64,000 nt of DNA from the IMG/VR virus record IMGVR_UViG_3300036859_000864, positions 47,462 to 111,461 of that record; one strand, 5' to 3'. Shown piece by piece: positions 42,851 through 64,000 of the stretch. The DNA is from a virus. A model generated the notes under the pieces. The model ran no database searches. It was given only the letters and a program-made list of their open reading frames with translations, and had not been told where the DNA came from. Position 1 is the first letter of the stretch. Every line of letters begins with the position of its first letter. The position numbers were made by a program, and so were the translations under genes.

Positions 42851-43342
42851 TCAACGGGGCAAACGCGGTGGGCGCTTCGCGGGAGGCGGCAGGCTCGGGT
42901 CGCGCCTGGAGTCGGTAGAGTTCAAGCCGGGAACGACCAGCTCCAACAGCTCGCGCACGCCCGTCGGCGCCTCATCCCACTCTGAGGGGCGATCTGAGCG
43001 ACCGCCTCGATTGACGTGCCCGCGCAGTAGCAGGCTCGCAGTTCGGCGCGCATCTTCGATTCGAGCCAGGCGCTCGTCGTTGAGATCTTGCTCGAACTTC
43101 TCTCGTTGGTCGTCGAGCTTCTTGCCGAGACTCGCGGTCACCGCCTCCTTAGAAGCTTGCAGCACTTCGTACTGCTTTCGTTGCTCTTCGATGCGCGCCT
43201 CGAGCGCACCGACCAGTTTCGCATCTTTCCCACGCATCATACCCCACACCGCTCCGACGCCGGCGACCGCCATCGTGAGCAGGTAGGGGCCTACTCCGTG
43301 GGTGAGGTCTTGCGTAACGTTCGGTGGCGGGGTGTCGATCAC
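42851..43342 (-). CDS. Membrane-anchored coiled-coil protein
   Basis: 163 aa. Hydrophobic segment ~18-36 (YLLTMAVAGVGAVWGMM), then a long charged coiled coil (~40-105: ALEARIEEQRKQYEVLQASK) and a Pro/Arg C-terminus. Last gene of the minus-strand membrane cluster. Could be a structural tether. Confidence 0.6.
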   Translation of the reverse strand: MIDTPPPNVTQDLTHGVGPYLLTMAVAGVGAVWGMMRGKDAKLVGALEARIEEQRKQYEVLQASKEAVTASLGKKLDDQREKFEQDLNDERLARIEDARRTASLLLRGHVNRGGRSDRPSEWDEAPTGVRELLELVVPGLNSTDSRRDPSLPPPAKRPPRLPR

Positions 43343-43764
43343 GCCGGTTCAGGCTCCGACGGTGTTGCTGCGGGGGTGATCGCGGGCGGCGCGATCCCGA
43401 GCTTCTGCTCGATCTCGGCGAGTCTCAAATTGATCGTTTGCTGTTCGGTCGAGAGCTTGTGCGTTCGGTTTCGGAGCTGCTTGATCCACTTTGCGTGCTC
43501 ATCGCCGCGCTGTGTCTCTCGCTGGTAATGCTCCACGATCATGGTGCGGATGTCGTGCACCACTAGCAGGATGCGCTCGTCGCGCTTGTCGATTTGACCG
43601 AGCAGGTCTTGCTTGAAGTGCCCGAAAATCTCGATCACGTCTTCTGCCGTCGGGGGTTTGATCGGCTGGGTCTTGCCGAAGCTGCCCGATTGGGGCCGCT
43701 CGCCGTTGTCTTCAAGAGACTCGCCGGGAACTGGTGTGAGACGGTCGTCGTCGTGGTCGCTCAT
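43339..43764 (-). CDS. Coiled-coil protein
   Basis: 141 aa. Disordered first 40 residues, coiled coil ~40-115 (FGHFKQDLLGQIDKRDERIL, LSTEQQTINLRLAEIEQKLG), Pro/Ala tail. Overlaps both neighbours. Probably a partner of the adjacent coiled-coil membrane protein. Confidence 0.55.
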   Translation of the reverse strand: MSDHDDDRLTPVPGESLEDNGERPQSGSFGKTQPIKPPTAEDVIEIFGHFKQDLLGQIDKRDERILLVVHDIRTMIVEHYQRETQRGDEHAKWIKQLRNRTHKLSTEQQTINLRLAEIEQKLGIAPPAITPAATPSEPEPA

Positions 43765-44579
43765 GTGCGGCTCGGCTCGATCTGTTTCTTCGGTATGTAG
43801 TAGACGATGAGAGCTCCGCCGACCAGCACGGCGGCGCCCACGAGCACGATCGTTGCCCAGTGTATCGTTTTAGGTATCCCCTTGGCGGTTTCAGTGAGCC
43901 CTTGGGTAGTCGCTTGTACCAGATCGTGTACTTCCCCGAGCAGTTCGCCCGCGGAGTAGCCGATTAGCTGGATGACGCCCTTCGTGGAGATGTAGGCCCC
44001 CTCGATGCGGGCGCGGATCTCTTGTTGCAGGTCGAAGGACGGGACGTCGGGGAGTTGTAGAGGGACGTTCCAGAGTTTCGAGAGCGCGATCAGCTCTTGC
44101 GCGTAGTCGCCGCCGACACGCATGACGACGTCCTGGTGCCACTTGAGCATCGACGATGCGCCGGCGAGGATGTCAGCGCTGGACTTGTCCTTCCAGGCGT
44201 TCCATTGCGTCAAGATGTCGCCGCCCGGGTCTTTACCCCAGGTGCGCTTGCGTGTGAGAGCGAGCGAAGAGCAGAACTCGTGGTTCGCGTTCGGTGCGAT
44301 CTGCGCTTCGGTGAAGATGCCCGCCGGGCATTGCTTCGCGTCGGGTAGCCCTTCGAGGAGGTCGTTCAAATTACGCCAGAGCGCGATGTGCGCTGCGATG
44401 AATGGGTCCCACTCTTGTCGGTAGGCGAGCAGATCGCCGACATCGCCGAGTCCGATGCCGTTCAACCCGGAACTGAGCGATGGGTCGAGCGAGATGACTC
44501 GCCGTCCGCCGTAGTAAATCCCCTCTGGTCGTATGATGGGGCACTCTCCGAGGAACGCCGTTTCGTTGATCATCGTCAT
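43761..44579 (-). CDS. C-terminally anchored membrane protein
   Basis: 272 aa. Folded helical body (~1-235), then a single hydrophobic span (~243-265, ATIVLVGAAVLVGGALIVYY) and a short basic tail (IPKKQIEPSRT). Same topology as the LysM proteins at 51-60 kb: large N-terminal domain, C-terminal anchor, basic end. Probably a virion membrane component. Start ATG overlaps the preceding gene; ATG 44573 is an alternative. Confidence 0.6.
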   Translation of the reverse strand: MTMINETAFLGECPIIRPEGIYYGGRRVISLDPSLSSGLNGIGLGDVGDLLAYRQEWDPFIAAHIALWRNLNDLLEGLPDAKQCPAGIFTEAQIAPNANHEFCSSLALTRKRTWGKDPGGDILTQWNAWKDKSSADILAGASSMLKWHQDVVMRVGGDYAQELIALSKLWNVPLQLPDVPSFDLQQEIRARIEGAYISTKGVIQLIGYSAGELLGEVHDLVQATTQGLTETAKGIPKTIHWATIVLVGAAVLVGGALIVYYIPKKQIEPSRT

Positions 44580-44755
44580 CGTCGTTTCTTCTTTCGAAAA
44601 GTGCTCGCGACTTCTTCGATGACCCATCCTGCTGCGGCGCTTACAACGCTCGTTGCGAGCACCGCAGGCCACGGCGATGCGGCGGCGGCGGCCGGAGGCA
44701 CCGGCACGCTCGAACCGAAACCGACGACGGGATGGCCTCCGTAACGGACGGTCAT
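44576..44755 (-). CDS. Small membrane protein with PVVGFG motif
   Basis: 59 aa. N-terminal GGHPVVGFGS, then a hydrophobic span (~28-48, WPAVLATSVVSAAAGWV) and a KKKRR end. The PVVGFG segment is shared with the next gene upstream, suggesting the two are processed or targeted alike. Confidence 0.55.
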   Translation of the reverse strand: MTVRYGGHPVVGFGSSVPVPPAAAAASPWPAVLATSVVSAAAGWVIEEVASTFRKKKRR

Positions 44756-45615
44756 GACTTGTCTCGGACCCACGCCCTGAACGTCATCATTACGCCCATC
44801 TCCGGAACACCTGGCGTTGGTAGCTCGGCGGAGGAAGTCAACGGCGCTGTGATCGGCGCGTCGACCATGTAGCGGAACGCTCCCGGACCTAAATCGTCGT
44901 CCGAAGGCCAGTCCAGCGGGAGCAGTGACCCAGGAGGGTATGCGATAGCGTGCAACCCCGGTTGCCCCGCAGCGGCCTCCTCGAACATTCGAGTGCCTTG
45001 CGCGACGAATTCCGGAGGCAGCGGCACGCCGTCGATCCCGGCGACCGCGACGGCGATTCGCTGTCCCGCGTTCACGACGCTGTTCGCTTGAACGGGATGC
45101 CACCCCGACGTCGTCGCCGGCGTCGGTGTTACAGGCGCCGGCGTCGCGGGAGGAAGCGCCTTCGGTGTCGATGAGGGCGTCGGTGCGGGAGGCGTTACAG
45201 TGCACCCCGCCACTCTGGAAACTTCGGCCATGAACGCGCCGAACTTGTTCGGATCGGACATCCACGAGGCGTCGAACGGAGTGCCCGCCGCTTCGAGATT
45301 CGCTTTTGCCTTGTTGAAGGCGGCCGTGCGCTCGTCGGCGGACAGGCTCTCGCAATCTCTTTGCGGAGGTTTACGTAGCGCGTACGAAGCGAGAAGGTTG
45401 CCCCCCAGCAAGCCGCCGACTCCGCCGACTATAGTACCGACGGTGGCACCAACAGCGCCTTTATGGACGACGTTGCCGAGAACCGCTCCTCCAATTGCAC
45501 CTACGAAAAATCCAGCGATCGTCGCCGGTGCTGTAGCCCGCTCGTGCGCTAATTCACTCTCCGCGTCACCGAACCCGACAACCGGCGCGCCGTTCAAAAA
45601 TACTTGCTCGTTCAT
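44752..45615 (-). CDS. Glycine-zipper membrane protein with PVVGFG motif
   Basis: 287 aa. N-terminal LNGAPVVGFGDAE, glycine-zipper hydrophobic region (~32-75, GAIGGAVLGNVVHKGAVGAT), a Cys-containing domain, Pro/Thr linker (~140-175), then a folded C-terminal domain (~180-287). Probably an integral virion or envelope protein. Confidence 0.6.
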   Translation of the reverse strand: MNEQVFLNGAPVVGFGDAESELAHERATAPATIAGFFVGAIGGAVLGNVVHKGAVGATVGTIVGGVGGLLGGNLLASYALRKPPQRDCESLSADERTAAFNKAKANLEAAGTPFDASWMSDPNKFGAFMAEVSRVAGCTVTPPAPTPSSTPKALPPATPAPVTPTPATTSGWHPVQANSVVNAGQRIAVAVAGIDGVPLPPEFVAQGTRMFEEAAAGQPGLHAIAYPPGSLLPLDWPSDDDLGPGAFRYMVDAPITAPLTSSAELPTPGVPEMGVMMTFRAWVRDKS

Positions 45616-46034
45616 GATGCTTTGCTCCAACCGTGTAGCGTAGCCGCGGTGCCCACAGCGAGGCTGGCTACCGTGAGAACAGCAATCGCGCGATCCCATC
45701 CCGACTTGGATGACGGTGGTGTGATGCCGGCTCCCTCGGGCGCGCCGGCGGGGATGTAGATGCCCGCCGCGCGAAAGCACCCCTGCACGAGGTCGCCCTT
45801 CTCGTCGCGCCCCCAAACCCGCGGCTCGATGCGGATGAGCGTCGTGACGCCCGGCAACGGAAAGCTTTCGGTCGCGCCGAGCGGCACAGCCGGATCGTCG
45901 ATGACGGCCTTCGCGCGTTGCGCCAAAGCGTCAGGCACGGGGCCGTCAGCGTCCGTCCAGCTTCTCCAACCGTCTGGAGTAGGTGCGACAGGGCACTGCG
46001 CCGCGAGTTGGGATCCTGCGCCGAATTGCGCCAT
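45612..46034 (-). CDS. C-terminally anchored protein
   Basis: 140 aa. Folded domain with IRIEPRVWGRDEKGDLVQGC and FRAAGIYIP, a Gly/Pro/Ser linker, and a C-terminal hydrophobic helix (~113-133, AIAVLTVASLAVGTAATLHG). First gene of the minus-strand membrane cluster, divergent from a ribbon-helix-helix gene. Confidence 0.6.
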   Translation of the reverse strand: MAQFGAGSQLAAQCPVAPTPDGWRSWTDADGPVPDALAQRAKAVIDDPAVPLGATESFPLPGVTTLIRIEPRVWGRDEKGDLVQGCFRAAGIYIPAGAPEGAGITPPSSKSGWDRAIAVLTVASLAVGTAATLHGWSKAS

Positions 46035-46052
46035 CCCAGGCTAGTCTACACG

Positions 46053-46066: not shown

Positions 46067-46116
46067 GTCCAACCGCAGGGGAGCAGTATTACGAAACGCA
46101 GACGGTTGAAATACGA

Positions 46117-46931: not shown

Positions 46932-47311
46932 AATTCGTTCCTAGACACGCGCAGATCATCGGTCGCTTGGTTATCAAACCGCAGTCATCGACGATCATCA
47001 TGGGGGATCCGACGAAGGTCACAAAATTCCTCTTGGTGGACGCTGTCGGTGAAGGCGCCTCGAAGTCGGGGATCAAAGTCGGCGACTTGGTCGTGCCGAA
47101 AGCGTTGGCCCAGATCGTATTGGAGTCGGGCACTCGGTTCTGTCCGTATCTCGAAGAGAAGGACGTGGCGTTCTTCGTTCGAGGCGCGAACTTGAACGAC
47201 CTGCACGTGCAGACAGACTCCGCCGCCAAATACGTGCCGTTCGGTTCGCCGGAAGCTGCGGAACCGATCGGGGCGCAAGACGACCTCGAGCAAGCACAGG
47301 CGGCAGAATGA
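46928..47311 (+). CDS. GroES-like co-chaperonin protein
   Basis: 127 aa, GTG start. The order of strands GRLVIKPQSSTIIMGDPTKV, LLVDAVGEGASKSGIKVGDL, VLESGTRFCPYLEEKDVAFF fits the GroES beta barrel (VGxG ... VGDxV). Phages such as T4 encode their own co-chaperonin to fold capsid protein in host GroEL; being near capsid genes fits. Sequence similarity is weak. Confidence 0.5.
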   Translation: MKFVPRHAQIIGRLVIKPQSSTIIMGDPTKVTKFLLVDAVGEGASKSGIKVGDLVVPKALAQIVLESGTRFCPYLEEKDVAFFVRGANLNDLHVQTDSAAKYVPFGSPEAAEPIGAQDDLEQAQAAE

Positions 47312-47982
47312 CGTACGGGGCTCGCGAGATCATTCGGCGCCAACGCGCCAACGACTGTGCGTGCAAAGCGCCTGCACGCGCGCCTTCTCATGTGCGTGAG
47401 GGCGGCGGTCGGATCTTGCGCCCGCGCGCGTTCATGCGCGAAGAGGTTTCCGAGCGCGGCAAGGTTCATCGTCCTCGCGGTGTCGAGCCTGTCGTCATCG
47501 CCGGCGCGCCCGGCTCGAAGTGTCGACCTTTCCTCAAGGTCGAGAAGGACGCTGAGAAGTTCGCGGCGTGCAACGCGCTCGCCGAGGAGCTCGGGCCACT
47601 CAACACGCCGAAGAAGATGTACAGAATCATCGAAGATGCCATCGGTGACGAGGTCAACGAGGTCTTCGGTGTCCTGATGCTCGACATGCACTTGAGGCTC
47701 AAAGGTCTCGCCGAGACCGGGCGCGGGGAACCCTCGAGCGTGATGGCGCCGTTGAAGCCGACACTTCAGATGGCGCTGATCAGCGGAGCGGATTCGATCA
47801 TCTTGTGGCACGTGCACCCCTCTGGGATCGAAGCCGAGCCCAGTGAGGCGGACAAGGAGACCACAGAGGCGTTCGCCGAAGCGTGCGATGCGATCGAGCT
47901 GCCACTTCTCGACCACCTGATCATCGGCGGAGACATCCGAAGACGCAGCTACTTCTCGTTTGCAGAAGACGGTTTGCTGTAA
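47308..47982 (+). CDS. RadC/JAB-family metalloprotein
   Basis: 224 aa. JAMM motif HVHPSG (~168-173) with Asp182 in EPSEAD and LLDHLIIGG near the C-terminus, all typical of RadC/MPN domains. The N-terminal ~90 residues are basic. RadC-like proteins in mobile elements act in DNA recombination or as deubiquitinase-like peptidases; which applies here is unknown. Confidence 0.75.
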   Translation: MTYGAREIIRRQRANDCACKAPARAPSHVREGGGRILRPRAFMREEVSERGKVHRPRGVEPVVIAGAPGSKCRPFLKVEKDAEKFAACNALAEELGPLNTPKKMYRIIEDAIGDEVNEVFGVLMLDMHLRLKGLAETGRGEPSSVMAPLKPTLQMALISGADSIILWHVHPSGIEAEPSEADKETTEAFAEACDAIELPLLDHLIIGGDIRRRSYFSFAEDGLL

Positions 47983-48582: not shown

Positions 48583-50442
48583 ATGACTCGTCGTGGATCG
48601 CGCGATCAGAATCGAAGCGAACGGGTCGCGCCCGTCGGCACGCCTGCTCAAGAAGATGAAGCGGACATCTTGGCCGAGGTGGGCGGTGAGCGTGACGAAA
48701 ACGGTCAGCTCATAGCCGACGAGGAATCGGTGCGCGCGATAGGTGCGATCGACGCGGAGAGCGTGCGCACGAACCGACGGATGAAAGACGTCGTGGACAA
48801 GAAGCGCGGAGGGATGAAGGGCGTCACGTTCAACACGGACGATCTGCTCGCGTCGTACGAGGCGCTGATCAAGCAGTGGCCTCCGAACACCCTCGACATC
48901 ACCGTCAGGCGCATGACAGGCACGCAGGTGACACGAACGATCACCAGCCGTCCCCGGTCCGGTGTCGAGCTCTACGAAGCGATCAAGCTGATCCACGGTC
49001 AGTACGAGGAAGCCGAGTACGAGGTCAAGTGCCTGGACACCAACCAGAAGCAGTACCGCGGCACCGGTCGAATCATCATGCCGGACACGCGCGCCGTGCC
49101 CCCACAAGGACAGCCGATGCAAACCTTCTACCCGAACGGAGCGCCTATACCTCCGGGTTACCCTCCGCAACCGGCGCCTGCTTTCTACCCACCGACGCCC
49201 GGTTATCCACCGCCTCCCGGCTACGCAGCGCCTCCGTCACCTCCGGCGCAGGGCCAACAGCCGCCTCCGCAGCAACAGCAACAGCCGTTCCCGCAGCAGT
49301 CGGCAGCGCCGCCGCAAGTGCCTACCGTACAAGTCATGCCGTCGCAGTTCGATCCGGGATCGATGATGACGATCATGGATCAGTTGTTTCAGATGTTCCA
49401 ACGGTTGCAGGCGTCGGCACAACCGCCACCGCAACCGCCGCCTCAGTACCCGCCACAGTACGCACCCCCGCCTTTGGCGACTTCGATGCCGCCGCCTCCT
49501 TCGGCGCAGGCCAGTCCCGCCGAGATGTTCGAGTGGATTCAAAGGGCGTTCGGGATGTTTCAGTCGATGACACAGCAGCCGCAGCAACAGCAGCCTGCGC
49601 AAGCGCCGGTCGTTTATCGGGAGCCGCCGGTACCGCCGCCGGCGCAACAGACCGCGCCTGCGGGTCCGACGAAGCCGCCGCCGCGCGGCTACATTTGGGG
49701 TTGGTTCCCCGAGCACGCCGCGTTCGCGCTCGTGCCTGAAACGACCGGTGGGGGCTCGGAGCAGGCCCCGGGCCCGTTCCGGCGCCCGGCGTACATGCCG
49801 CAAGGAGATCAAGGCGCCAGAACGCCCTACACGGGGCCGCAGCACCAACAACAGCAGCACGCGCAACATCCGCCGCCGCCCTCTCGTCCGAAAACGCCTC
49901 GAGAGCAGTTTCAAGAGTCCATAGGGTTCGTGCGCGAAGCTGCGAGCGCGGTCGAAGAGATGCAATCCTTGCTGCCCGGCTTCGGTGGAGGGGGGCAGCA
50001 AGAGGTCGCTGAACAGCCGGACGACGACGACAACCCGATCAAGATCATCGACACCGGCAAAGGACGCATCGCTATCAACAAGAGCGACGGCGCCCTGCGT
50101 TGGGCCGAGACGGGCATGATGGTGCTTCCCGACGTGCTCAAGTGGCTCGGCGAGCAGCATCAGACTATTCAAAAAGCTGCCGAACGGCGACAGCAGCAAC
50201 AACAGCAGCAACAGCCGCGACAACTCGCACCCGGCTACGTCGAAGTGACGCCCGGGTATCAGCCGCCGCCTGGGTTCACGGCCGTTCCGGTCGATCAAGA
50301 TCAACCTCAGCAGCAGCAACAGTCTCCGCTTCCGCCACCGCCGGCGCACGTGCCCCCGCCGATTCAAACTTCGGCGGAGCCTCCCGCAGGACGAACGTGG
50401 GGCACGCCAACGATCCCCGAGTTCGATCAAGGAGAGAACTGA
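48583..50442 (+). CDS. Large Pro/Gln-rich virion-associated protein
   Basis: 619 aa. N-terminal ~175 residues form a folded domain (TFNTDDLLASYEALIKQW, ELYEAIKLIHGQYEEAEYEV). Residues ~180-440 are low-complexity Pro/Gln/Ala with Gln runs of up to five; a helical segment (SIGFVREAASAVEEMQSLLP) and a folded patch (KGRIAINKSDGALRWAETGM) follow; the end is again Pro/Gln rich. Such disordered sequence is unusual in bacterial viruses. A TTG at 48562 is an alternative start. Possibly a scaffold or condensate-forming protein. Confidence 0.65.
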   Translation: MTRRGSRDQNRSERVAPVGTPAQEDEADILAEVGGERDENGQLIADEESVRAIGAIDAESVRTNRRMKDVVDKKRGGMKGVTFNTDDLLASYEALIKQWPPNTLDITVRRMTGTQVTRTITSRPRSGVELYEAIKLIHGQYEEAEYEVKCLDTNQKQYRGTGRIIMPDTRAVPPQGQPMQTFYPNGAPIPPGYPPQPAPAFYPPTPGYPPPPGYAAPPSPPAQGQQPPPQQQQQPFPQQSAAPPQVPTVQVMPSQFDPGSMMTIMDQLFQMFQRLQASAQPPPQPPPQYPPQYAPPPLATSMPPPPSAQASPAEMFEWIQRAFGMFQSMTQQPQQQQPAQAPVVYREPPVPPPAQQTAPAGPTKPPPRGYIWGWFPEHAAFALVPETTGGGSEQAPGPFRRPAYMPQGDQGARTPYTGPQHQQQQHAQHPPPPSRPKTPREQFQESIGFVREAASAVEEMQSLLPGFGGGGQQEVAEQPDDDDNPIKIIDTGKGRIAINKSDGALRWAETGMMVLPDVLKWLGEQHQTIQKAAERRQQQQQQQQPRQLAPGYVEVTPGYQPPPGFTAVPVDQDQPQQQQQSPLPPPPAHVPPPIQTSAEPPAGRTWGTPTIPEFDQGEN

Positions 50443-51134: not shown

Positions 51135-52379
51135 GTGCACACACACGTCGTTCAGGCCGGTGAGAGCCCCTCGTCGATTGCGATCAACTACGTGGGGTGC
51201 CCCAAATGCTCGCGGGATTTGATCGAAGCGAACCCGCACAAGCCTGCCGTGGTGCACCCGAACGGCTACATTTCCTTCAAAGACCTGCGTGAGGGCGAAA
51301 AGCTCAAGCTGCCCGGCAAGTGGTTTGACGGGAGTCTCGACTCTCGCCCGACCGCGTACTTCGCAGCACTGCCGTACCATGACGGGGTGACGCCTGGCAA
51401 ATTCGGAGTCGGCGCCCCCAACGTGCTCAACGACTACGCCGCGCTCGACGCCGCCGGCGTGAAAGTCGGGGCACTCGCCGCTTTGGGTGATCAAGCGTTC
51501 GCTGCCGCCGTGAACGGCGCTGCCGACGCCGTCGACGTGTCGGTGCGTGAGATAGGTGAGGGGACGACGACGCCTACGGTGTACGCCGCTCCGTACGCGC
51601 GAGATGCACGCACGGCTACGGCCAAGGCGCGGCAGTACAACGCCACGGTGCTCGATGCGGCTATCGCGGCCGGGGATGCTCAAGAAGCATTTCAAGCGCG
51701 CACAGAAATTCTGAAAAACCTCTCGAGCGCGCTCGGGTCTGCGCGTTTGGCGCTCCAAGCGTTCTACGGAGACGCGGGCGACGGGGGTGCGCCTCAGCCT
51801 GTAGCGCCGGCGCCTCAACCGACTCCGGAAATTCAGGTCGACATCGGCCCGGCTACGATCGATCCGACGCTCACATCGCCGGCAGTCGTCACCGCTGCGG
51901 CACAAGCTGCGGTTTCCGCTATGGGCGCGGACGCCAACTACTGCACGTCGGTCGCGCGACCCGGCAGTGCTGTCAACTCAGCAGTGCATGCTTTCAAAAC
52001 AGCCTGGAACGCGGCAAATCCGAACAATCCGGTCCCGATTGGCACCAGCACCTACGAGCAAGCGACGGCCGACGCGATCATGCGCGCGGTTGGACACGCG
52101 CCCGTCGCGTGCGGGGCGAGTGCTGTTCCGAGTGCATCGCCGGGCGCAACGCCTACCGCCCCCTCGCTCGTGGCGCCTGAACCGAGCAAAGGGATCGGTG
52201 TCGCCGGTATCTTGGGTCTCGGATTGCTCGGCGCCGGCGCTGTTGGGGGCGTGATCTACTACGCCACCAGCAAACCTGTCGCGCCTCGCCGACGAGTGCG
52301 ACGAGTCAGCCCCGGCCCTCGTCGACGACCCGTGCAGCGCGACACCATCGGCCCTTGGAAGAAAGACCCCAACTCGTGA
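51135..52379 (+). CDS. LysM protein with C-terminal membrane anchor and basic tail
   Basis: 414 aa, GTG start. N-terminal LysM (~2-57: VVQAGESPSSIAINY ... LIEANPHKP), a helical stretch (~100-220), a module ANYCTSVARPGSAVNSAVH (~266 on) with AWNAANP and VPIGT, a Pro/Ala linker, one membrane span (~353-377) and a strongly basic tail. LysM binds peptidoglycan. By the positive-inside rule the LysM faces away from the DNA compartment. The NYCTSVAR module and overall design recur in the gene at 59080. Likely a vertex or penetration protein of a membrane-containing virion. Confidence 0.72.
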   Translation: MHTHVVQAGESPSSIAINYVGCPKCSRDLIEANPHKPAVVHPNGYISFKDLREGEKLKLPGKWFDGSLDSRPTAYFAALPYHDGVTPGKFGVGAPNVLNDYAALDAAGVKVGALAALGDQAFAAAVNGAADAVDVSVREIGEGTTTPTVYAAPYARDARTATAKARQYNATVLDAAIAAGDAQEAFQARTEILKNLSSALGSARLALQAFYGDAGDGGAPQPVAPAPQPTPEIQVDIGPATIDPTLTSPAVVTAAAQAAVSAMGADANYCTSVARPGSAVNSAVHAFKTAWNAANPNNPVPIGTSTYEQATADAIMRAVGHAPVACGASAVPSASPGATPTAPSLVAPEPSKGIGVAGILGLGLLGAGAVGGVIYYATSKPVAPRRRVRRVSPGPRRRPVQRDTIGPWKKDPNS

Positions 52380-54845: not shown

Positions 54846-54852
54846 ACGCGCC

Positions 54853-54871
54853 TCTCCGCGCATCGCGGAGA
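54853..54871. promoter_or_regulatory. Hairpin in the leader of the 441-aa capsid candidate
   Basis: TCTCCGCG (54853-54860), CAT, CGCGGAGA (54864-54871): a perfect 8-bp stem 7 bp after the previous stop. The rest of the 145-bp gap is also structured (CTTCGA/TCGAAG and CCCGG/CCGGG pairs) and ends with AGGAGAAGAAG before the ATG. Suggests termination or processing and separate, strong expression of the capsid gene. Confidence 0.45.
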
Positions 54872-54990
54872 AGCAACACCCCCGCCCCGGTAGGCTTCGA
54901 GCCCCGGGGTTGAGGTGTCGAAGGGCCCGGAGCCCCTAAAACACCGCTCGTGTCGGCCCAGGAAACGGCGAGCAATCAGGAGAAGAAGTC

Positions 54991-56316
54991 ATGGGAGCCA
55001 GGAACATCGTCGGTCGGCAGATTCACAAGTTCGGTGACGCGCAGGACAAGGTCAAGCGCATGCAATTCGGTCTCGGAGTGGATCCGAACAGCGGAGCGCT
55101 CGCGGCAGACGCCTCGGGCAAGTGCCTCCGTTGCTCCTTCGGGAACATCCCCGTGATCGAGGAGGTCGTCTGGACGATCCCGCTCCCCCTCACGGCCACC
55201 GAGGCGCTCGCAACGCTCGGTGACACGGTGAACCTTCTCTCGGGCAGCTCCAGCGTGCCCGGCGTCGCGTCGATCGACTCGACGTTCCTCATCAACGGCA
55301 TTCTCCAGACGGACATTCTGGCGCAGGGCATCGGCGTGCACGTGTTCTGCGAGCCGATGAGCTTCTCGACCATCGGCAACGCCTTCGTGGCGCCCGAGAC
55401 GACGGTGGCTCCTCCTCCGTCGCCCGACGTGTTCACCAACAACGACGTGACCTCGCGCGCGATGAGCACGCAGGTCGACGCGACCGCGTCGAACTTCAGC
55501 CCGGCCGTGTTCGAGTTCGGTGCCGACGTTTGGCGCGCGGGCTGGAACTTCATCAACGCCTACCAGTTTCAGTGGAAGACCTCGCAGCGCGAGCTCGTCC
55601 TCAACGAGCTGGCGGCGGACGTCTCGTACTTCGGCTCCTTCGCGGACGCCGAGGCGAGCGGCACGAGCGAAGTCGCCATCATCGAGTTCGTCGCGACGGT
55701 CAACGCGATCTACCGGTCGAAGGGCTCGAATACGATCTTCCTGCCCGTCAACTTCCGGCGCGTGGGTTCCGTCAACAGCACCAGCGCGACGGTCAACGTC
55801 GGCGTGTTCCACCCGACGCGCGATTTCGATCTCGCGCCGGTCACCTGGGGCGGTCTTCGGTGGCAGGGGTACGGCTGCCGCGGGCAGATGTACCGGCCGA
55901 TCGAGAGCCCGTGCTTCCTCGAGCGCGGTATCCCCATCGGGATGCTCTTCGTCGTGCAGGACGCCGTGCACCAGGCGCTCATGCTCCAGGCCGTCACCAT
56001 CAACAACGAGCCCCTCGGCGTGAACGTCAGCGTGGACGAGAACTTCTCGGACGCCTCGGCCGTCATCCCGACGCCGGCGACCCCCGGTACGCCCACGGCG
56101 GGCGCCATCGTGGTCGGCGGCAACAACACGATGCTGGAGCAGACGCTCGATGCGACTCCGGTGCTCGTGACGCAGTCGGTGAACACCTCTCGGCAGGTGT
56201 TCAAGGGCGGCATCCTGAAACTCGCGATCAAGATCAAGGGCTGGGAGATGCCCGGCGGCTGGAAGGACTACTGCAAGACCAACCTGCCGCAGATCATGTC
56301 GAACTCGGCTCCCTGA
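54991..56316 (+). CDS. Candidate major capsid protein, 441 aa
   Basis: 441 aa, ATG after a strong AGGAGAAGAAG site. Beta-rich throughout with few charged helices: VVWTIPLPLTATEALATLGD, GVHVFCEPMSFSTIG, KTSQRELVLNELAADVSYFG, FDLAPVTWGGLRWQGYGC, RGIPIGMLFVVQDAVHQALM. The length, strand-loop alternation, strong own leader and following hairpin fit an abundant capsid protein, possibly a double jelly-roll. No HK97 signature is seen. Assignment by context and composition only. Confidence 0.5.
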   Translation: MGARNIVGRQIHKFGDAQDKVKRMQFGLGVDPNSGALAADASGKCLRCSFGNIPVIEEVVWTIPLPLTATEALATLGDTVNLLSGSSSVPGVASIDSTFLINGILQTDILAQGIGVHVFCEPMSFSTIGNAFVAPETTVAPPPSPDVFTNNDVTSRAMSTQVDATASNFSPAVFEFGADVWRAGWNFINAYQFQWKTSQRELVLNELAADVSYFGSFADAEASGTSEVAIIEFVATVNAIYRSKGSNTIFLPVNFRRVGSVNSTSATVNVGVFHPTRDFDLAPVTWGGLRWQGYGCRGQMYRPIESPCFLERGIPIGMLFVVQDAVHQALMLQAVTINNEPLGVNVSVDENFSDASAVIPTPATPGTPTAGAIVVGGNNTMLEQTLDATPVLVTQSVNTSRQVFKGGILKLAIKIKGWEMPGGWKDYCKTNLPQIMSNSAP

Positions 56317-56355
56317 TTCGAACCAGCGCACGCTAGTCCGAACAGCACAAGGCTC

Positions 56356-56389
56356 AGGCGGCGTGACGGAAGACAACGTCGCGCCGCCT
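56356..56389 (+). terminator. Hairpin between capsid candidates
   Basis: AGGCGGCGTGACG (56356-56368) pairs with CGTCGCGCCGCCT (56377-56389) as a 13-bp stem with one G-U and an 8-nt loop, followed by GTCCTGTTT. A likely intrinsic terminator or attenuator that sets the ratio of the upstream 441-aa protein to the downstream genes. Confidence 0.6.
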
Positions 56390-56423
56390 GTCCTGTTTCT
56401 AGAGAGTTCAACGGAGAATCGCC

Positions 56424-57029
56424 ATGCAGCCTCGTGATCACGAAATTCGGAATCTTGCGCTCTACGCCCCCAAGATCGCCTTCGGCATGATGGCCGGCGT
56501 CCCGCGCGTGCCGTTCATTGGGGACATCCCGATCCAGTTCTCCTCGTCGACGGTCAACGCGCCGCCGGTCGTGCAGAACTTCCAGAACAACCTGACGCAG
56601 CACACGATCGTCGAGCGCATCGCGTACAACTTGGGGCAGCAAAATAGCTTCCCCGGGAGCCCGTTCCAGAGCCTCTACTTCAACCAGCTCAAGCAGAGCG
56701 GCCAGATCGGCGTTGGCGTGCAGCTCGCCGTGTACGGCGGCCCCAAGTACAACGTCAACGACACGTTCACGGATCTCGGCACTCTCGCCGATGTGTTCGC
56801 GGTCGCGTGGCCCATGGGATGGCCGCTCGAGAAGCAGAGCAACGTGAAGGTGAGCGCGATTCTTCAACAGACGCCGGTGAGTGTGCCCTTCAACGTTACT
56901 CTCACCTTCCTCGGCTGGCAGTTTCTCTCGAAGGAGCTGGACGACATGAGCGACACCGAAGCGCGAGACCGATTGCGCAAACTCGGTATCGAGACCCCCG
57001 ACCTCAAGGTACTTCTCTCGAACCCCTGA
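56424..57029 (+). CDS. Candidate capsid protein, 201 aa
   Basis: 201 aa. Beta-rich: IAFGMMAGVPRVPFIGDIPI, GVGVQLAVYGGPKYNVND, VKVSAILQQTPVSVPFNVTL, TFLGWQFL, then a helical tail (MSDTEARDRLRKLGI). Together with the next gene it matches the size pair of the two single-jelly-roll capsid proteins of P23-77-type viruses (about 20 and 32 kDa). Sequence homology cannot be judged here. Confidence 0.5.
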   Translation: MQPRDHEIRNLALYAPKIAFGMMAGVPRVPFIGDIPIQFSSSTVNAPPVVQNFQNNLTQHTIVERIAYNLGQQNSFPGSPFQSLYFNQLKQSGQIGVGVQLAVYGGPKYNVNDTFTDLGTLADVFAVAWPMGWPLEKQSNVKVSAILQQTPVSVPFNVTLTFLGWQFLSKELDDMSDTEARDRLRKLGIETPDLKVLLSNP

Positions 57030-57031
57030 AA

Positions 57032-57925
57032 ATGGACGAGCGCAGCGCGAAGGTGATCAGGCTCCAGACACACCCCGATGGTGTGGGGGCCTCGATCCGC
57101 TCGACGCTGTGCAACGGCCGTGACGAGATTGTCACCAACGGGCCGAACCAAGAATTCGGCTTCCTCGGAAGCGACCCGTACAACACGAACGCCTACACGG
57201 GTCTGGTCGTCCCGTCGGTTGCCAGCTCGGCGATCGGAAACGCTCGCTACCTCTTCGTGCTCGCGCGTCAGAGTTTCAGCACGGGCGAGCAGAGCTCGGA
57301 CCGACGCGGCGTCCGTCTGGTCGGCATTCGACAGTACGCCGAACTCATCGCGCGTATCCCCGCACGCACCGCCCCGCTCGCTTCAGGTACGGGATCACCA
57401 GCCGGAAGCACCGTCACGTTTCGCAAGGAGATCACGAGCCCCCTCTGGCATCCGCAAGACGGGAACATCTCCTGGCACGTGATGATCATCAACAAGGTGC
57501 AGCGTGATACGCGCAACCCCGCGAACACGGACGGGGTCATCTATCAGGACGCGCTGTCTCCCGCGCTGCTCTACCAAACGCTCGGGCCGTACGTTCCTCC
57601 GAACGCTGGACGTCCTTGGGGCACTCCGATTGGAGCGAGCCTCGGCAACATCCACGAGCTTCGGTACCCCTGGCGCACGACGCTGAGTGAGCTGACGCTC
57701 GATATTTCGATCCCGGTCCCGTGTGACGTCGTGCTCTTCGCGAGCGTTCGTCAGAACGACCCCGCGACCAATCCTGTGCTTTCGGACGCTGTGACCACGA
57801 CGCAACAGTTCGAGGCGCTCTCACCGGAAGATCAGTTCATCGTCGCGTACCCGACGTTCGCGCAATACGGCGCCATCGCCGGCTCGCTCGTCTTCGATCA
57901 GAACCTCGGGGAGGACGTACCGTGA
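57032..57925 (+). CDS. Candidate capsid protein, 297 aa
   Basis: 297 aa, ATG 2 nt after the previous stop. Beta-rich: ARYLFVLARQSFSTGEQSSD, GVRLVGIRQYAELIARIP, ISWHVMIINKVQRD, LSELTLDISIPVPCDVVLFA. Begins with an Arg/Lys-containing arm. Its partnership with the 201-aa gene suggests a capsid heterodimer, or one of the three forms spikes or pentons. Confidence 0.5.
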   Translation: MDERSAKVIRLQTHPDGVGASIRSTLCNGRDEIVTNGPNQEFGFLGSDPYNTNAYTGLVVPSVASSAIGNARYLFVLARQSFSTGEQSSDRRGVRLVGIRQYAELIARIPARTAPLASGTGSPAGSTVTFRKEITSPLWHPQDGNISWHVMIINKVQRDTRNPANTDGVIYQDALSPALLYQTLGPYVPPNAGRPWGTPIGASLGNIHELRYPWRTTLSELTLDISIPVPCDVVLFASVRQNDPATNPVLSDAVTTTQQFEALSPEDQFIVAYPTFAQYGAIAGSLVFDQNLGEDVP

Positions 57926-58155
57926 GTTTTAACAACGGTGGCGTGTACATTCTCAGCAGCGCGATCGGAGGCTTGTTCGCGGGCGCTGTCGGCGCGGCCG
58001 TTGCCGAGTCCGCTGACTCGCATCCCGTGCTCAAAGGGGCCCTCGTTGTCGGAGCTATCGACGCGCTTCTGGCAACCGCCGTCTACGTCGCCGTCTCACA
58101 GCCCATCCTTCCTGCAACCGGCGTGAGCGGATTGCACAACCCGAGGATCCCGTGA
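57922..58155 (+). CDS. Small two-span membrane protein
   Basis: 77 aa, GTG start. Glycine-rich hydrophobic helices (~8-30 and ~38-62). In the capsid cluster; likely a virion membrane protein. Confidence 0.6.
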   Translation: MSFNNGGVYILSSAIGGLFAGAVGAAVAESADSHPVLKGALVVGAIDALLATAVYVAVSQPILPATGVSGLHNPRIP

Positions 58156-58370
58156 CGCGAACTACCGCAGCGCTTCTCGGTCTCGTGGTAGGCGGTATCG
58201 CCGGTGAGGTCGTGGGTCGTCATTTCGAGAAGGGCCACGGAAAAGAGGCCGAGCTCGAGGGCGCGATCGGCGGCGGCGTTCTCGGCGCGGCGCTGGGTTC
58301 GGTTCTTTTCGCCACGGCGGCATCTTCTCCTCAACAGCAGGCGCAAGTCTCGCAAGCGAGTTTCCCATGA
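58152..58370 (+). CDS. Glycine-zipper membrane protein
   Basis: 72 aa, GTG start. Two glycine-rich hydrophobic helices (LLGLVVGGIAGEVVG ~8-22; GAIGGGVLGAALGSVLFATA ~38-57) with a charged loop. Similar design to the 42428 gene. Probably in the virion membrane. Confidence 0.6.
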   Translation: MTRTTAALLGLVVGGIAGEVVGRHFEKGHGKEAELEGAIGGGVLGAALGSVLFATAASSPQQQAQVSQASFP

Positions 58371-59080
58371 CGCCGGCACAAGCGTACGGACACCCCGACT
58401 ACGTTCTGGACGTTCCCGTTCAAGGACCGACCGATCAAGGCATGCGCGAACTGGCCTGCCTGTTCGTCAAGACCGTTTTACCGACACCGCAGCAGGCCGC
58501 GTGCGTCGATTGTAAAGGACCGATTCCAATGTGGGCAAAAACGAACACAGGCGTCAGTGAAAAGATCTCGTTCGGCGGCGTCGGCGCAGTCGGCTTCGCG
58601 CTCGGAGCTCCCGGAGATCCCGACGCTTGGACGCAGCTCACGCCAGCGCAGCAGACGTGGGTCGTAACTTCGATCCGCACGCTCGACTCGAAGATCCGAG
58701 AGCAGACGAAGACCACGTGCCCTGGCATGCAATCGCCGAGCATCACGGGCATGGCCGGTTGCTTTCAGAACTGGTTCAACAGCGCGAAACTCGGTCTGAC
58801 GAAGCGCGACGGATCCCCGGTCGTGCTGCGCACCGACGGCGTCTTCGATCAAGACACGCTCGATGCGCTGCGCACCGTCACTTCGCTCGACGCGAAGAAC
58901 TACCCGACGCCGTTTCCGGGTACCGAGGCGGCCGGCATTCAGCCCGTCAAGAAGCTTTCCACCGGAGCCATGGTCGGCATCGCTGCCGCCGGCGCAACGG
59001 TTCTCGGTGGGATCGCCTACGTCGCCATGCATGGCAAGAGCAAACGCAAGGGCCGCACGACCCGCAGAAAGAGGAAGTGA
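58367..59080 (+). CDS. C-terminally anchored protein with PG-binding-like motif
   Basis: 237 aa. N-terminal domain with paired Cys (RELACLF, QAACVDCKG, TTCPGM, AGCFQNW); LRTDGVFDQDTLDALR (~154-169) looks like the end of a peptidoglycan_binding_1 repeat; membrane span ~200-222; tail GKSKRKGRTTRRKRK. Same C-terminal design as the two LysM proteins. ATGA overlap on one side and TGATG on the other. Confidence 0.6.
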   Translation: MTPAQAYGHPDYVLDVPVQGPTDQGMRELACLFVKTVLPTPQQAACVDCKGPIPMWAKTNTGVSEKISFGGVGAVGFALGAPGDPDAWTQLTPAQQTWVVTSIRTLDSKIREQTKTTCPGMQSPSITGMAGCFQNWFNSAKLGLTKRDGSPVVLRTDGVFDQDTLDALRTVTSLDAKNYPTPFPGTEAAGIQPVKKLSTGAMVGIAAAGATVLGGIAYVAMHGKSKRKGRTTRRKRK

Positions 59081-60546
59081 TGTCGTTCTTCAGAGTCAAG
59101 CCGGGACAATCTCCGGCCATGGTCGCACGCGAGCTCGGCACGTCGGTGTCGGCGCTCATCGCCGCCAACTCGCACAAGCCCACTGCGGTCGTCGCAGGCA
59201 AGCGCACGTTCAAAACACTGCGCTACAACGAGCTCTTGCACAAGCCCGGTGTGGGCGTTGGAGCACTCGGTGAGGACGGCACGCTCGGTGCGATCACGCC
59301 GGCTGATCCGGCGGCGCCTCACGCGCTGATCGCATCAGGTAGCAGCGGTCCTGACGTTGCGCTCTGGCAGAAGATCATCGGCGTCAAGGTCGATGGCTCC
59401 TTCGGATCTGGAACCGCAGCAGCAACGAAAACGTGGCAGAGCGCACATGGGCTCAACAACGACGGCGTCGTCGGTCCCAACACGTGGGCGAAAGCTCTCG
59501 GCAACGCCTCGAGCGCGCCGGTATCGGTGTCGACTCCAGTCGCAGCCGGAGCGAGCCTCGCGATGGCGGCGGGAGCCGCATACACGGCGCTCAACCAGGA
59601 TCCGAACTACTGCACGAGCGTCGCTCGTGCAGGCACGCCGGTGAACACGGCCGTCCACAACTTCAAAGCGGCCTGGAACGCGGCCTACCCCGGACAGACG
59701 GTACCTATCGGGACTGGAAAGTACGAGCCGTCGGTGTCCGCCGCGCTCTCGTCGGCGCTCGGCGGAGTGGCCGTGCCTGCGGGATGCGGCGCCGGAGCGG
59801 CTCCACAACCCTCCCCCGCGGCGGCTCCGTCGGCACCGGCTCCCATGCCGGCACCGAGTGTCACGCCGGTGCCTACACCGGCACCCACGGCCTCGAGCGC
59901 CTACAGCAGCGCGCAGATCGCTGCGGCGACGGCCATGAACTCAGCGCTCGCGGCGCACGGCTACAAGCAGGCCGATCAGGGGCTCTACATGGCGTTCCAG
60001 CGCGCGATGGGGCTCACGGCCGACGGGTACCCCGGAACCGGCACGATGGGGAAGCTCAGGGCCGTCCTCACCTCCGCCGGCATTCCGATGGCCTCGGTAC
60101 CCGTGTACCCGTGGCGCGCGGGAGCCTACGACGGCGTGAACGCACCGACGGCCGCCTCTTGGACAGGCGCCGCCGCAACGCCCGCGCCGCCTCCCCCACC
60201 GTCCGCCCCGCCCTCCGCGCCTCCCGGCGGCGGCGCGGCTCCGGCACCCTCCGCACCGTCTGCTCCTTCCGCCGGCGGAGGCACGCTCCCCGTAGCTCCG
60301 ACGCCGGGCGGCATCACACCCCCGGAGGCGAAGAAGGGCCTGAGCACCGGTGCGATCGTGGTCGGCGCGATCGGCGCAGCGGCGCTCATCGGGTTGGGCG
60401 CCATGGCGTTGACGGGCAAGAAGACCGGCCGCCGCGGAGCTCGAGGAGCGCGTGGCCCGTCTCGACGCAAGTCGAGCAAGCACAAGCCGGCGCACCACGC
60501 GCATCCCGCACATCCGAAGCGCAAGAGGAAGTCGAAGAAGAAGTAG
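59080..60546 (+). CDS. LysM and peptidoglycan-binding protein with membrane anchor and basic tail
   Basis: 488 aa, ATG after GAGGAAG. LysM (~2-45: VKPGQSPAMVARELGTSVSA), PG_binding_1 (~85-145: VALWQKIIGVKVDGSFGSGT ... GVVGPNTWAKAL), a NYCTSVARAGTPVNTAVHNF module (~174-235), a second PG-binding-like unit (~280-345: YMAFQRAMGLTADGYPGTGT), a Pro/Ala linker, a membrane span (~424-446) and a 40-residue Arg/Lys/His tail. It would hold the virion membrane on its DNA side and bind the host cell wall on the other. A penetration or vertex role is inferred. Confidence 0.75.
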   Translation: MSFFRVKPGQSPAMVARELGTSVSALIAANSHKPTAVVAGKRTFKTLRYNELLHKPGVGVGALGEDGTLGAITPADPAAPHALIASGSSGPDVALWQKIIGVKVDGSFGSGTAAATKTWQSAHGLNNDGVVGPNTWAKALGNASSAPVSVSTPVAAGASLAMAAGAAYTALNQDPNYCTSVARAGTPVNTAVHNFKAAWNAAYPGQTVPIGTGKYEPSVSAALSSALGGVAVPAGCGAGAAPQPSPAAAPSAPAPMPAPSVTPVPTPAPTASSAYSSAQIAAATAMNSALAAHGYKQADQGLYMAFQRAMGLTADGYPGTGTMGKLRAVLTSAGIPMASVPVYPWRAGAYDGVNAPTAASWTGAAATPAPPPPPSAPPSAPPGGGAAPAPSAPSAPSAGGGTLPVAPTPGGITPPEAKKGLSTGAIVVGAIGAAALIGLGAMALTGKKTGRRGARGARGPSRRKSSKHKPAHHAHPAHPKRKRKSKKK

Positions 60547-61283: not shown

Positions 61284-61294
61284 AGGAGACGCGC

Positions 61295-61483: not shown

Positions 61484-61486
61484 TCC

Positions 61487-62659
61487 ATGACACGCATCAT
61501 CGGAAAAGGCAGATACGCGAGCGAGGTCTACCCGATCAGCCCGGGCGTCGGCGCGGGTAGCGGTGGCGACGTGTTGCCTTTTTCGAATTTGCGCTACCTC
61601 GATCCGGCAACGACGCACGCGGCGCCGCACACGGGGTCGGTCAGCAACCCGTGCGTGACGGTCGCGGAGATCGCCGCGCTGACTCCCGGGTTCATGGTGA
61701 TCCAGGTCGCCGGGAGCCCGCTAGATAACCCTGCGGTGATCCCCGCCGGCACGCTGTGCGGCATCACAGGCATGCCGGAGTTCGGTTTCTTCTTCCCGTC
61801 GATGACGCTCGAGTCCGGCGCAAACGTCTCGATGCGTGACGTGTACTTCGTCAACGTCGGAGAGCAAGAAGGAGGAGGGGCGGCACAACTCAATGTCGTG
61901 TTTGCTATCGATCCGAGATCAGCCTCATTCACGAACCAGATTCGACAGATAAATCTGACTAACTCTCAGGTTTCCCTGACTCGCTGCAATGTCTACTCGT
62001 CGATCAGCGCGACATTCTTGACGCTCTATCAGTGTCGCATTTCTAGTCTCGGAGGAGAGCCAGCGCCTAGCATCACAATGAACAACGGCGGGTTCCTCTC
62101 TGCCGAAGACACGCTGTTCACTTCTTCGGTCCCGTCTACCATCACGCTCGACACGGGCGGGGGGCAGTTCATAAACTGCACGTTCAACTCGGCGGTGACG
62201 ATCAACAACGCGACCGGAATCGCGACGTTCGATCAGGTTTCGTTGGACAGCCTCAACGCAGCAGGAGGCACCGTCACCACCCCCGAGAACTTGGCCCTGG
62301 CTCCGGCGCAGTTGATGGTTCCCATGATCGGGACTCAGACCGTCGCGGCCAGCGAAGTTCTCACAATAGGAGCCAATTACTCTGCCGTAAATCAGTACGG
62401 ATCCAAAGCGACCGCATTCATCCCGCAGGCTGCCGCCGTTGGAGAGTCGTTGGTGATCACGCTCGTCATCGCAACGGGCGCCGTGATCGGGTCGGTGACG
62501 ATAGACAATACGACGCCCCCTGGCGCTGTAGACATCCCGCTCATCACGCCGAAAGTCCCCATCCCACCGGCTGGGGTACTCCTTGCCGATCTCAACTACA
62601 CGTCTGGAGTCGGCCCAACGCCGCTCGCTGCAACCGTCGTTCGCGTCGATTTGATCTGA
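61487..62659 (+). CDS. Beta-helix fibre/receptor-binding protein
   Basis: 390 aa. N-terminal anchor TRIIGKGRYASEVYPISPG, Gly/Ser linker, then Asn/Ser/Thr-rich repeats of a right-handed parallel beta helix (SQVSLTRCNVYSSISATFLT, SITMNNGGFLSAEDTLFTSS, TIDNTTPPG...). C-terminal beta sandwich-like end. No catalytic motif identified. Likely binds the host surface. Confidence 0.65.
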   Translation: MTRIIGKGRYASEVYPISPGVGAGSGGDVLPFSNLRYLDPATTHAAPHTGSVSNPCVTVAEIAALTPGFMVIQVAGSPLDNPAVIPAGTLCGITGMPEFGFFFPSMTLESGANVSMRDVYFVNVGEQEGGGAAQLNVVFAIDPRSASFTNQIRQINLTNSQVSLTRCNVYSSISATFLTLYQCRISSLGGEPAPSITMNNGGFLSAEDTLFTSSVPSTITLDTGGGQFINCTFNSAVTINNATGIATFDQVSLDSLNAAGGTVTTPENLALAPAQLMVPMIGTQTVAASEVLTIGANYSAVNQYGSKATAFIPQAAAVGESLVITLVIATGAVIGSVTIDNTTPPGAVDIPLITPKVPIPPAGVLLADLNYTSGVGPTPLAATVVRVDLI

Positions 62660-62674
62660 AAGAGAGCATCCCAA

Positions 62675-63910
62675 ATGAGTCGAATACTCGGTCGTGGTCG
62701 TTACGTTTACGGAACCTACCCGCAAGGCCCCGGAGGCGGAGGCGGAGCTGGCGCGGCGGCTGTGCCGCTCTCTCGACAGCGTTTCATCGACGGTGACACG
62801 TCGCAGGCGGGGTTGAACGGGTCGGCGGCCGAACCGTTCAAGACCATCGAGCAGTTCATGACCGCTCGAGACAACACTGTTTCAGCGGCGGACTCAGACG
62901 CGAATTTCGTCGGGTGGCTCATGCCGTCACTCGCCGGGTACGTGGAAGACGTCGCATTTCGCGCTCGTTGTTCGACTGAACTTCGAGCCGACTCCATGTC
63001 TTTGCCCGGGACCGGAGGTGTAACGATCACCGGCAATGTGTCGTGGGCGAACACGTCTGGGACAGCAGCCGCTACGGCCGCCAATCTCTCACTCCACAAC
63101 ATCAACGTGACCGGCGCGCTCACCGTGACTGACAACGGAGCCGCACCGACGTGTCTCGTTTCGATAAGCGGAGACGAGGAGCCGGGTGGTGCTTCTGCGA
63201 TCATAGCCAGCATCGACTCGAGTACGACCACGAAGTTGTCGTCGATCTCGCTCAACAACGCTCAGTGCACGGGAACTCTCACCGCGGGCACCAGTGCGAC
63301 CAGCGCCGTAGCGATTCTCACGGGCGGATCTATCGTGGGAGACAACCTCACTGCACAGTCGCTCATTTGCAACGACGCGGTGATCGGCGGGGACGTCGCC
63401 GTAAACACTTCCGGGTTCGCGATATTCCGAAACACCGCGTTCAACGGTGTGACGGCGCTCACGGCTGCCACCTCCTCATTCGACACTGCATCGTGGGCCA
63501 GCTTCGTGGAGCAGGCCGGCACGCGCGCCGCCGGAACGACAGTGCTGGTCACCGGGGGTTACAACGGGGGCTCAGTGGAAGGTGCCGCTCTAGCAGCCGC
63601 GAGCACCAGCGTGTCGCTCAACGGCACGGGAGCCACTGCCGGATTCACCGGTGAGAACTCTGGAAATCACTACTCCACGGCGAGCGTCACACCGACCTCA
63701 GTCACACTCCTGACGGGCGGCGGAGAGAAACCCGGAGACACGCTGCTCATCACTCGAACCGCCGTCGTGGCAGCCGACCTCGCGGTCATAAACGGAGGCG
63801 GCGGAGCCGGCACAATCGGGACGATTCCGACCGGTTCCAAAGGGTTCGTGCTCGCTCGATTCAACGGCACGAACTGGATCTTCGTGGAGGGCGGATCGCT
63901 CGCAGCGTGA
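62675..63910 (+). CDS. Second beta-helix fibre/receptor-binding protein
   Basis: 411 aa. Anchor SRILGRGRYVYGTYPQGPG is nearly the same as that of the preceding fibre; then a Gly/Ala linker, AEPFKTIEQFMTARDN (typical start of a phage beta-helix), and repeats (NLSLHNINVTGALTVTDNG, ISLNNAQCTGTLTAGT, LICNDAVIGGDVAVN). C-terminal KGFVLARFNGTNWIFVEGG is a typical fibre tip. Two fibres with one anchor imply alternative host-range proteins. Confidence 0.68.
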   Translation: MSRILGRGRYVYGTYPQGPGGGGGAGAAAVPLSRQRFIDGDTSQAGLNGSAAEPFKTIEQFMTARDNTVSAADSDANFVGWLMPSLAGYVEDVAFRARCSTELRADSMSLPGTGGVTITGNVSWANTSGTAAATAANLSLHNINVTGALTVTDNGAAPTCLVSISGDEEPGGASAIIASIDSSTTTKLSSISLNNAQCTGTLTAGTSATSAVAILTGGSIVGDNLTAQSLICNDAVIGGDVAVNTSGFAIFRNTAFNGVTALTAATSSFDTASWASFVEQAGTRAAGTTVLVTGGYNGGSVEGAALAAASTSVSLNGTGATAGFTGENSGNHYSTASVTPTSVTLLTGGGEKPGDTLLITRTAVVAADLAVINGGGGAGTIGTIPTGSKGFVLARFNGTNWIFVEGGSLAA

Positions 63911-64000
63911 ACGAATTCCTGATCGTCTCGGCGCTCATCGGCACAACTCTTCTCGTTGTGCGCGGCACCATCTTCGAGCCACTCAGACGCCTCTGGCCCG
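63907..64000 (+). CDS. DUF1360-like membrane protein, N-terminal part
   Basis: GTG start in a GTGA overlap; open to the window edge (31 codons). A hydrophobic helix then RGTIFEPLRRLWP, the pattern of DUF1360-type phage membrane proteins, which are often near lysis genes. Incomplete, so tentative. Confidence 0.4.
   Translation, partial: MNEFLIVSALIGTTLLVVRGTIFEPLRRLWP

Follow-up and report, generated by a model that had tools for sequence, protein, structure and literature searches.

What kind of particle would be built by a dense, conserved block of non-annotated genes whose products are beta-rich, membrane-like or basic? Such a block, recognised in an earlier note from the letters alone, does lie at 42-64 kb of the window (the whole 64,000-nucleotide stretch analysed here) and was read there as the virion module of a large tailless virus with an internal membrane. 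The final 64 kb of the IMG/VR record IMGVR_UViG_3300036859_000864 (111,461 bp) make up the window, which carries the genes for building the particle of an uncultured microbial virus of 111 kb, in line with the predicted genome of more than 64 kb. A 127-bp direct repeat links the record ends, as in a circular dsDNA genome, and because it is present at both ends, the genome is probably complete; terminal repeats are found in the relatives G015, G022, G030 and G038 too. The family comprises about 40 related uncultured genomes of up to 128 kb. There are genes for replication and nucleotide metabolism, namely DNA polymerase A, VapE, Dda helicase and ThyX, and the genome also encodes ice-binding, peptidoglycan-binding and adhesin-like proteins. 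Searches of a phage collection gave no match at the DNA level, nor any at the protein level for g103, g105 or g107.

The core of the block is formed by g103 to g107 (52376-57925), the order of which is kept across 16 compared genomes, with the caveats that g104 is weakest in G034 and that the best g104 match in G037 does not adjoin g105-g107. The last three genes recur on approximately 39 contigs of 5-128 kb, with identity down to about 18%. All lie on the plus strand and encode the capsid candidates: g105 (54991..56316, 441 aa; capsid protein 1) is the most conserved, followed by g106 (56424..57029, 201 aa; capsid protein 2) and g107 (57032..57925, 297 aa; capsid protein 3), both predicted beta-sandwich proteins. 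Modelled jointly with AF2 as a two-protein read-through from L010, with one TGA read as W, g106 and g107 gave confident beta-rich domains (pLDDT 81.7), while the model of g105 was poor (pLDDT 56.9) and leaves its fold without a confident assignment. The top PDB matches of g106/g107 are PNGase F, a double-jelly-roll relative of capsid proteins (PMC8812541), the capsids of TRSV, HPV and IBDV, PRD1 P3 and the faustovirus MCP; the best of them are mostly jelly-roll proteins, all sub-significant, and Foldseek returned no match below E 0.001 with either the g105 or the g106/g107 model. Profiles of g105-g107 had no meaningful match among PDB sequences, and comparison of the three proteins with one another gave no support for mutual duplication. 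The three beta-rich capsid candidates at 54991-57925 hold up, and the proposed jelly-roll fold finds partial agreement in the g106/g107 matches, but the g105 model is too poor to bear on it.

Upstream of the capsid candidates, g104 (53457..54845, plus strand, 462 aa; 53457 is the true start) has a protamine-like, Arg/Lys-rich N-terminus of about 150 aa, with K+R at about 50% over 150 residues, followed by hydrophobic segments. This is the protamine-like membrane protein noticed earlier, and its architecture is similar throughout the family. The preceding g103 (52376..53032, plus strand), found in 16/16 genomes, encodes a transglutaminase-like protein of the cysteine-protease fold (Pfam Transglut_core, E 1e-6).

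A protein was counted as anchored if a tail with a net charge of at least +3 came after its C-terminal hydrophobic segment; this rule selects three module proteins compared with 1/143 elsewhere in the genome. They are encoded on the plus strand by g102 (51135..52379, 414 aa, with a C-terminal membrane span and a strongly basic tail), g110 (58529..59080, 183 aa, span and basic tail; 8/9 relatives) and g111 (59080..60546, 488 aa, C-terminal span and basic tail). At least six such proteins had been counted before, which is too many: the products of g091 (43761..44579, minus strand, 272 aa; in part of the family) and g094 (45612..45938, minus strand, 108 aa; 13/29 loci) do have a C-terminal hydrophobic span, but their tails are barely basic, and the one placed at 44576 turns out to be an ORF of 59 aa whose end is basic. 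Similarly, one of two supposed LysM/peptidoglycan-binding proteins stands: g111 carries peptidoglycan-binding domains (PG_binding_1, E 5e-15) and is likely a host-envelope contact or penetration protein, but LysM is sub-threshold there (E 0.014) and undetected by Pfam in g102, where a LysM-like N-terminus is seen by eye only.

Small or glycine-rich proteins are encoded by g088 (42428..42682, plus strand; glycine-zipper-like, relatives in 3/9 genomes), g093 (44752..45615, minus strand, 287 aa; an N-terminal VVGFG motif, then a glycine-zipper segment), g108 (57922..58155, plus strand; a 77-aa membrane protein, 4/29 loci) and g109 (58152..58370, plus strand; a 72-aa glycine-zipper membrane protein). 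Two further plus-strand genes are conserved in 10/10 genomes, g097 (47308..47982), which encodes a RadC-like JAB protein of the metalloprotease fold (Pfam RadC, E 4.5e-25) and is also kept in 4/6 distant genomes, and g099 (48583..50442), which encodes a 619-aa Pro/Gln-rich protein. Towards the window end, g116 (61487..62659, plus strand) and g117 (62762..63910, plus strand) encode fibre-like proteins, the former with an N-terminal motif, IIGKGRYA, common to two more proteins of the same genome. Calling them beta-helix fibres went too far, as Pfam has no match for either.

Among known viruses, the nearest appears to be SSIP-1, a tailless phage with an internal membrane and a genome of 44 kb (PMC6260650), to which sequence comparison suggests a distant relationship. 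Both genomes are circular dsDNA. The profile of g103 matches the transglutaminase-like SSIP-1 structural protein gp34 (hhalign probability 97.5, E 8e-12, 283 columns), a similarity that may be partly generic, because g073, a second transglutaminase-like protein of the genome, matches gp34 likewise. The order gp44-gp45-gp46-gp47, in which gp44 is membrane-like, parallels g104-g105-g106-g107 with weak profile similarity. In the hhalign ranking for g105, gp45 came first and gp46 third of 215 entries including decoys and shuffles, at low probabilities; taken singly, the g105/gp45 and g104/gp44 links are each sub-significant, and the capsid candidates are joined to SSIP-1 through such ranks only. 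SSIP-1 differs in its genome of 44 kb as against 74-128 kb in the g105 family, in a gp44 that lacks the protamine-like arm of g104, and in its virion ATPase gp40, for which no family-wide P-loop counterpart was found here. No bridging sequences between the two were found. The lineage is large and lacks the tailed-phage hallmarks searched for, as proposed, but is less isolated than 'undescribed' implied, since SSIP-1, overlooked earlier, looks like a relative; the statement that known tailless membrane phages have small genomes is likewise not true of all, given the 44 kb of SSIP-1.

Could the block nevertheless belong to a tailed phage or another duplodnavirus, with a terminase, portal and capsid that have diverged beyond recognition and with g105-g107 products that are tail or decoration proteins? 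Such proteins can be beta-rich too, DNA polymerase A, VapE, Dda helicase and ThyX are common in tailed phages, and IMG/VR records come from general virus classifiers. Pfam searches over the whole 111-kb genome and up to 28 relatives, in which positive controls were detected, agree with the earlier failure to see a terminase or portal and gave no HK97 capsid either: for the large terminase, PF03237 was absent in 28 records, PF03354 in 16 and PF04466 in 14; for the portal, PF04860 was absent in 28 and PF05133 in 14; and for the HK97-fold capsid, PF05065 was absent in 28. The conserved core contains no long tape-measure candidate. One apparently complete family member, G038, has no recognisable Walker A/P-loop ATPase and therefore no visible terminase, and a packaging ATPase or P-loop protein common to the whole family was not found. 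The suggested check for an A32/FtsK-type gene yielded a HerA-type ATPase at record position 14700-15626, outside the window, which is not specific to packaging and was rejected as evidence for a packaging motor because it occurs in 8/31 records and its nearest annotated relative, in the podovirus MW202482, lies beside that phage's own terminase and portal. The likeness to Caudoviricetes is one of replication and nucleotide genes and of this HerA-like ATPase. Together with the protamine-like membrane protein and the gp34 link to a tailless phage, the missing hallmarks make a tailed phage unlikely, and a large virus with jelly-roll-like capsid candidates, as modelled, and without tailed-phage hallmarks is supported.

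Among other known systems, P23-77 (Matshushitaviridae/Sphaerolipoviridae), with two single-jelly-roll capsid proteins, also has adjoining genes for a small and a large capsid protein, of sizes (VP16, 173 aa; VP17, 291 aa) comparable with g106 and g107. No sequence similarity between these pairs was found, however, and the g105 family differs in its third conserved capsid candidate, g105, in a genome of 111 kb versus 17 kb, and in that no FtsK/HerA packaging ATPase, as in the Helvetiavirae type, adjoins g105-g107. The double-jelly-roll phages (PRD1, PM2, FLiP and the Odin group; Bamfordvirae) resemble the g105 family in the PRD1 P3 and faustovirus MCP matches. Those of prokaryotes have genome sizes of about 7-18 kb, and a packaging ATPase is likewise missing from FLiP and the Odin group (PMC5894146). 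They build on a single double-jelly-roll capsid protein; the g105 model, itself poor, had no fold match below E 0.001. The protamine-like protein, the many membrane proteins and the lack of a common packaging motor would also suit a tailless particle of another architecture, either enveloped and pleomorphic or a nucleoprotein rod, with a membrane around g104-coated DNA and g105-g107 as surface spikes. Beta proteins that, like these three, are strictly linked and strongly conserved resemble shell components more closely, and the jelly-roll matches and the SSIP-1 link point the same way, which leaves this arrangement improbable.

A plasmid-like or other non-viral element with surface-protein genes, to which circular DNA and the ice-binding, peptidoglycan-binding and adhesin-like proteins also known in bacteria might point, is very improbable, as g105 had no match among 72,556 plasmid records, neither of two pattern scans across 84,980 genomes gave a relative (no provirus in the first; in the second a sole match, L171, rejected as a 24-residue chance match within a PLP-dependent regulator), no plasmid-type gene is among the Pfam matches and g103 is related to a virion protein.

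From the genes alone we infer that the virus is probably a tailless membrane virus, in which g105, g106 and g107, at least the last two as jelly-roll proteins, would form an icosahedral shell. The protamine-like arm of g104 would condense the DNA, its hydrophobic part lying in the internal membrane, which the small glycine-zipper proteins and the anchored g102, g110 and g111 may line, unless they are assembled at the vertices into complexes for binding peptidoglycan and opening the envelope of the host. The g103 product would be a virion-associated transglutaminase-fold enzyme, since the related gp34 belongs to the structural proteins of SSIP-1, and g116, g117 and genes just beyond the window end, at the start of the circular record, may be exchangeable fibres. 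A more far-reaching version is possible but doubtful: an undescribed order- or class-level lineage of tailless membrane viruses, unmatched in size among their kind at 74-128 kb, in which DNA condensed by membrane-anchored, protamine-like g104 would be enclosed without a packaging ATPase as the g105-g107 shell assembles.

The g105 family may thus consist of tailless bacterial viruses larger than any seen before. In the literature consulted, tailless membrane-containing phages have genomes of about 7-44 kb, and relatives of more than 100 kb would show that the particle plan scales up to sizes otherwise known, with this plan, only in eukaryotic giant-virus relatives. SSIP-1, until now almost without relatives, would gain about 40 uncultured ones. 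With no common packaging motor and a family-wide protamine-like membrane protein, how a genome of more than 70 kb enters its shell becomes a testable question.

The candidate virion module stands in its main lines, as the shared property of some 40 contigs that form a conserved family, and because of this conservation the observation is stronger than first stated. A search of IMG/VR with g105, one of the three capsid candidates (g105, g106 and g107) in the module core (g103-g107, 52376-57925), returned 29 loci at 45-87% identity, then one more divergent locus and three more of its clade. Searching with the g107 profile added a distant group (L202, L205-L209) that all three g105-g107 profiles match, with order kept. 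The universal core of ten genomes compared is small, and module genes belong to it; across sixteen genomes g103, g104, g105, g106 and g107 are still present, the assignment of g104 being weaker in G034 (E 4e-5) and in G037, where its best match lies apart from the g105-g107 trio and is not basic. Contigs with terminal repeats of at least 87 bp measure 73.6, 111.5, 116.3, 124.6 and 127.5 kb. The family was not found in the phage and plasmid collections searched, nor did either of two pattern scans across 84,980 genomes reveal a provirus.

Genes were called by our own codon-usage dynamic programming, and the remaining 47 kb of the record were also read. The last 127 bases of the 111,461-bp record repeat its first 127, the pattern that a complete genome, circular or circularly permuted, should show. 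The module block proposed at 42851-64000 is real and extends beyond the window end into the record start, where it continues with an ice-binding-like protein (Pfam E 7.5e-45), further fibre-like proteins and a GDSL-like hydrolase. Three fibre-like proteins (61487-62659 and, in record coordinates, L003:2135-3580 and L003:7010-7576) open with the motif IIGKGRYA..YP, a common start that points to exchangeable fibres docking through one kind of peptide. Many of the module's small membrane-like proteins (44576-44755, 44752-45615, L003:4873-5112) begin with a motif like NGRxVVGFG, also seen in relatives G001, G002, G020 and G026, which is possibly a targeting or processing signal. The earlier tally of membrane-anchored, basic-tailed proteins was too high: requiring a C-terminal hydrophobic segment and then a tail of net charge +3 or more gives 3 in the module versus 1 of 143 elsewhere in the genome (Fisher p 0.04). 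In the g104 protein (start 53457, 462 aa), Lys and Arg make up roughly 50% of a stretch of about 150 residues, after which come hydrophobic segments.

Elsewhere, on the minus strand, lie g048-g052 (19064-24491); the g048-g051 proteins form one group with short Arg/Lys-rich C-terminal tails and members in 10 of 10 genomes, and those proteins of the region scanned against Pfam gave no match. The virus also carries a rhomboid protease (9635-10192, minus) and a nitrilase-like carbon-nitrogen hydrolase (L003:9802-10902, minus).

The lack of portal and terminase claimed in the earlier note holds in the relatives too, as does that of an HK97 capsid, which it had named as evidence against its reading: terminase (PF03237, PF03354, PF04466), portal (PF04860, PF05133) and HK97 capsid (PF05065) families went unmatched in the 14 to 28 relatives tested, control genomes being positive. 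PHROG and Pfam scans of the genome's longer proteins detected replication and nucleotide genes, and no head or tail genes in Pfam or among the PHROG matches listed (the best 25 families, below which weaker matches could lie), besides one 'terminase'. This sole such match among those listed is a HerA-type ATPase (L003:14700-15626, minus; DUF87 E 4e-7), which 8 of the 31 records carry; its match is phrog_2666, whose label 'terminase large subunit' may mislead automatic annotation. We rejected it as a packaging marker because its best phage relative, the 'HerA helicase' of podovirus MW202482, coexists with that phage's own terminase and portal. No universal P-loop protein was found among the genomes compared, and ORFs above 100 aa in the relative G038 (L254-L257; 73.6 kb, 123-bp terminal repeat) hold no convincing Walker A motif. 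A packaging ATPase is likewise missing from FLiP and the Odin group (PMC5894146; table in PMC8328091), but their genomes, unlike those of this family, are small.

The predicted structure of g105 (pLDDT 56.9, pTM 0.57) gave only insignificant Foldseek matches, those in the PDB dominated by papillomavirus L1 and the named ones in BFVD including many capsid proteins. For g106 and g107, a natural in-frame read-through from locus L010, one TGA being translated as W, was modelled (pLDDT 81.7); among the PDB structures that it matches best are PNGase F (E 3.2e-3), the furin P domain, tobacco ringspot virus, papillomavirus L1, IBDV VP2, PRD1 P3 (E 0.062) and faustovirus capsid. Most of these, beyond PNGase F, we take to be jelly-roll proteins. 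Both PNGase F and PHM-type enzymes have a double jelly roll and are relatives of viral capsid proteins (PMC8812541). The matches lend moderate support to a jelly-roll nature of g106 and g107, and no more since TM-scores are low, perhaps through arbitrary relative placement of the two domains in the fused chain.

Salisaeta icosahedral phage 1 (SSIP-1) is a circular dsDNA virus of 44 kbp and 100 nm, listed as T=49 and 'single jelly roll?' (PMC6260650), which encodes two capsid-protein types and scarcely resembles anything in GenBank (PMC6356626). When family profiles were compared with all 57 SSIP-1 proteins, g103 matched the structural protein gp34 (probability 97.5, E 8e-12, 283 columns), with the caveat that a second transglutaminase-like protein, g073 (34122-34796), also matches gp34 (E 4e-6). 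The g105 profile ranked gp45 first and gp46 second, and gp44 and gp47 each came second for g104 and g106, respectively; among 215 proteins including decoys and shuffles, g105 placed gp45 first and gp46 third, shuffles reaching at most 17.7 versus 25.7. The capsid-candidate matches are each below significance singly, and the SSIP-1 order gp44-gp45-gp46-gp47 agrees with the family order g104-g105-g106-g107. Bridging sequences between SSIP-1 and the family were looked for and none found. Taken together, the gp34 match and the capsid-candidate ranks make SSIP-1 the best candidate relative.

The earlier proposal of a new large tailless lineage pointed in the right direction but calls for revision. 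The family, which judging from its genes would have an internal membrane and lack a tail, is probably a large-genome branch near SSIP-1 rather than an isolated lineage without likeness to known viruses.
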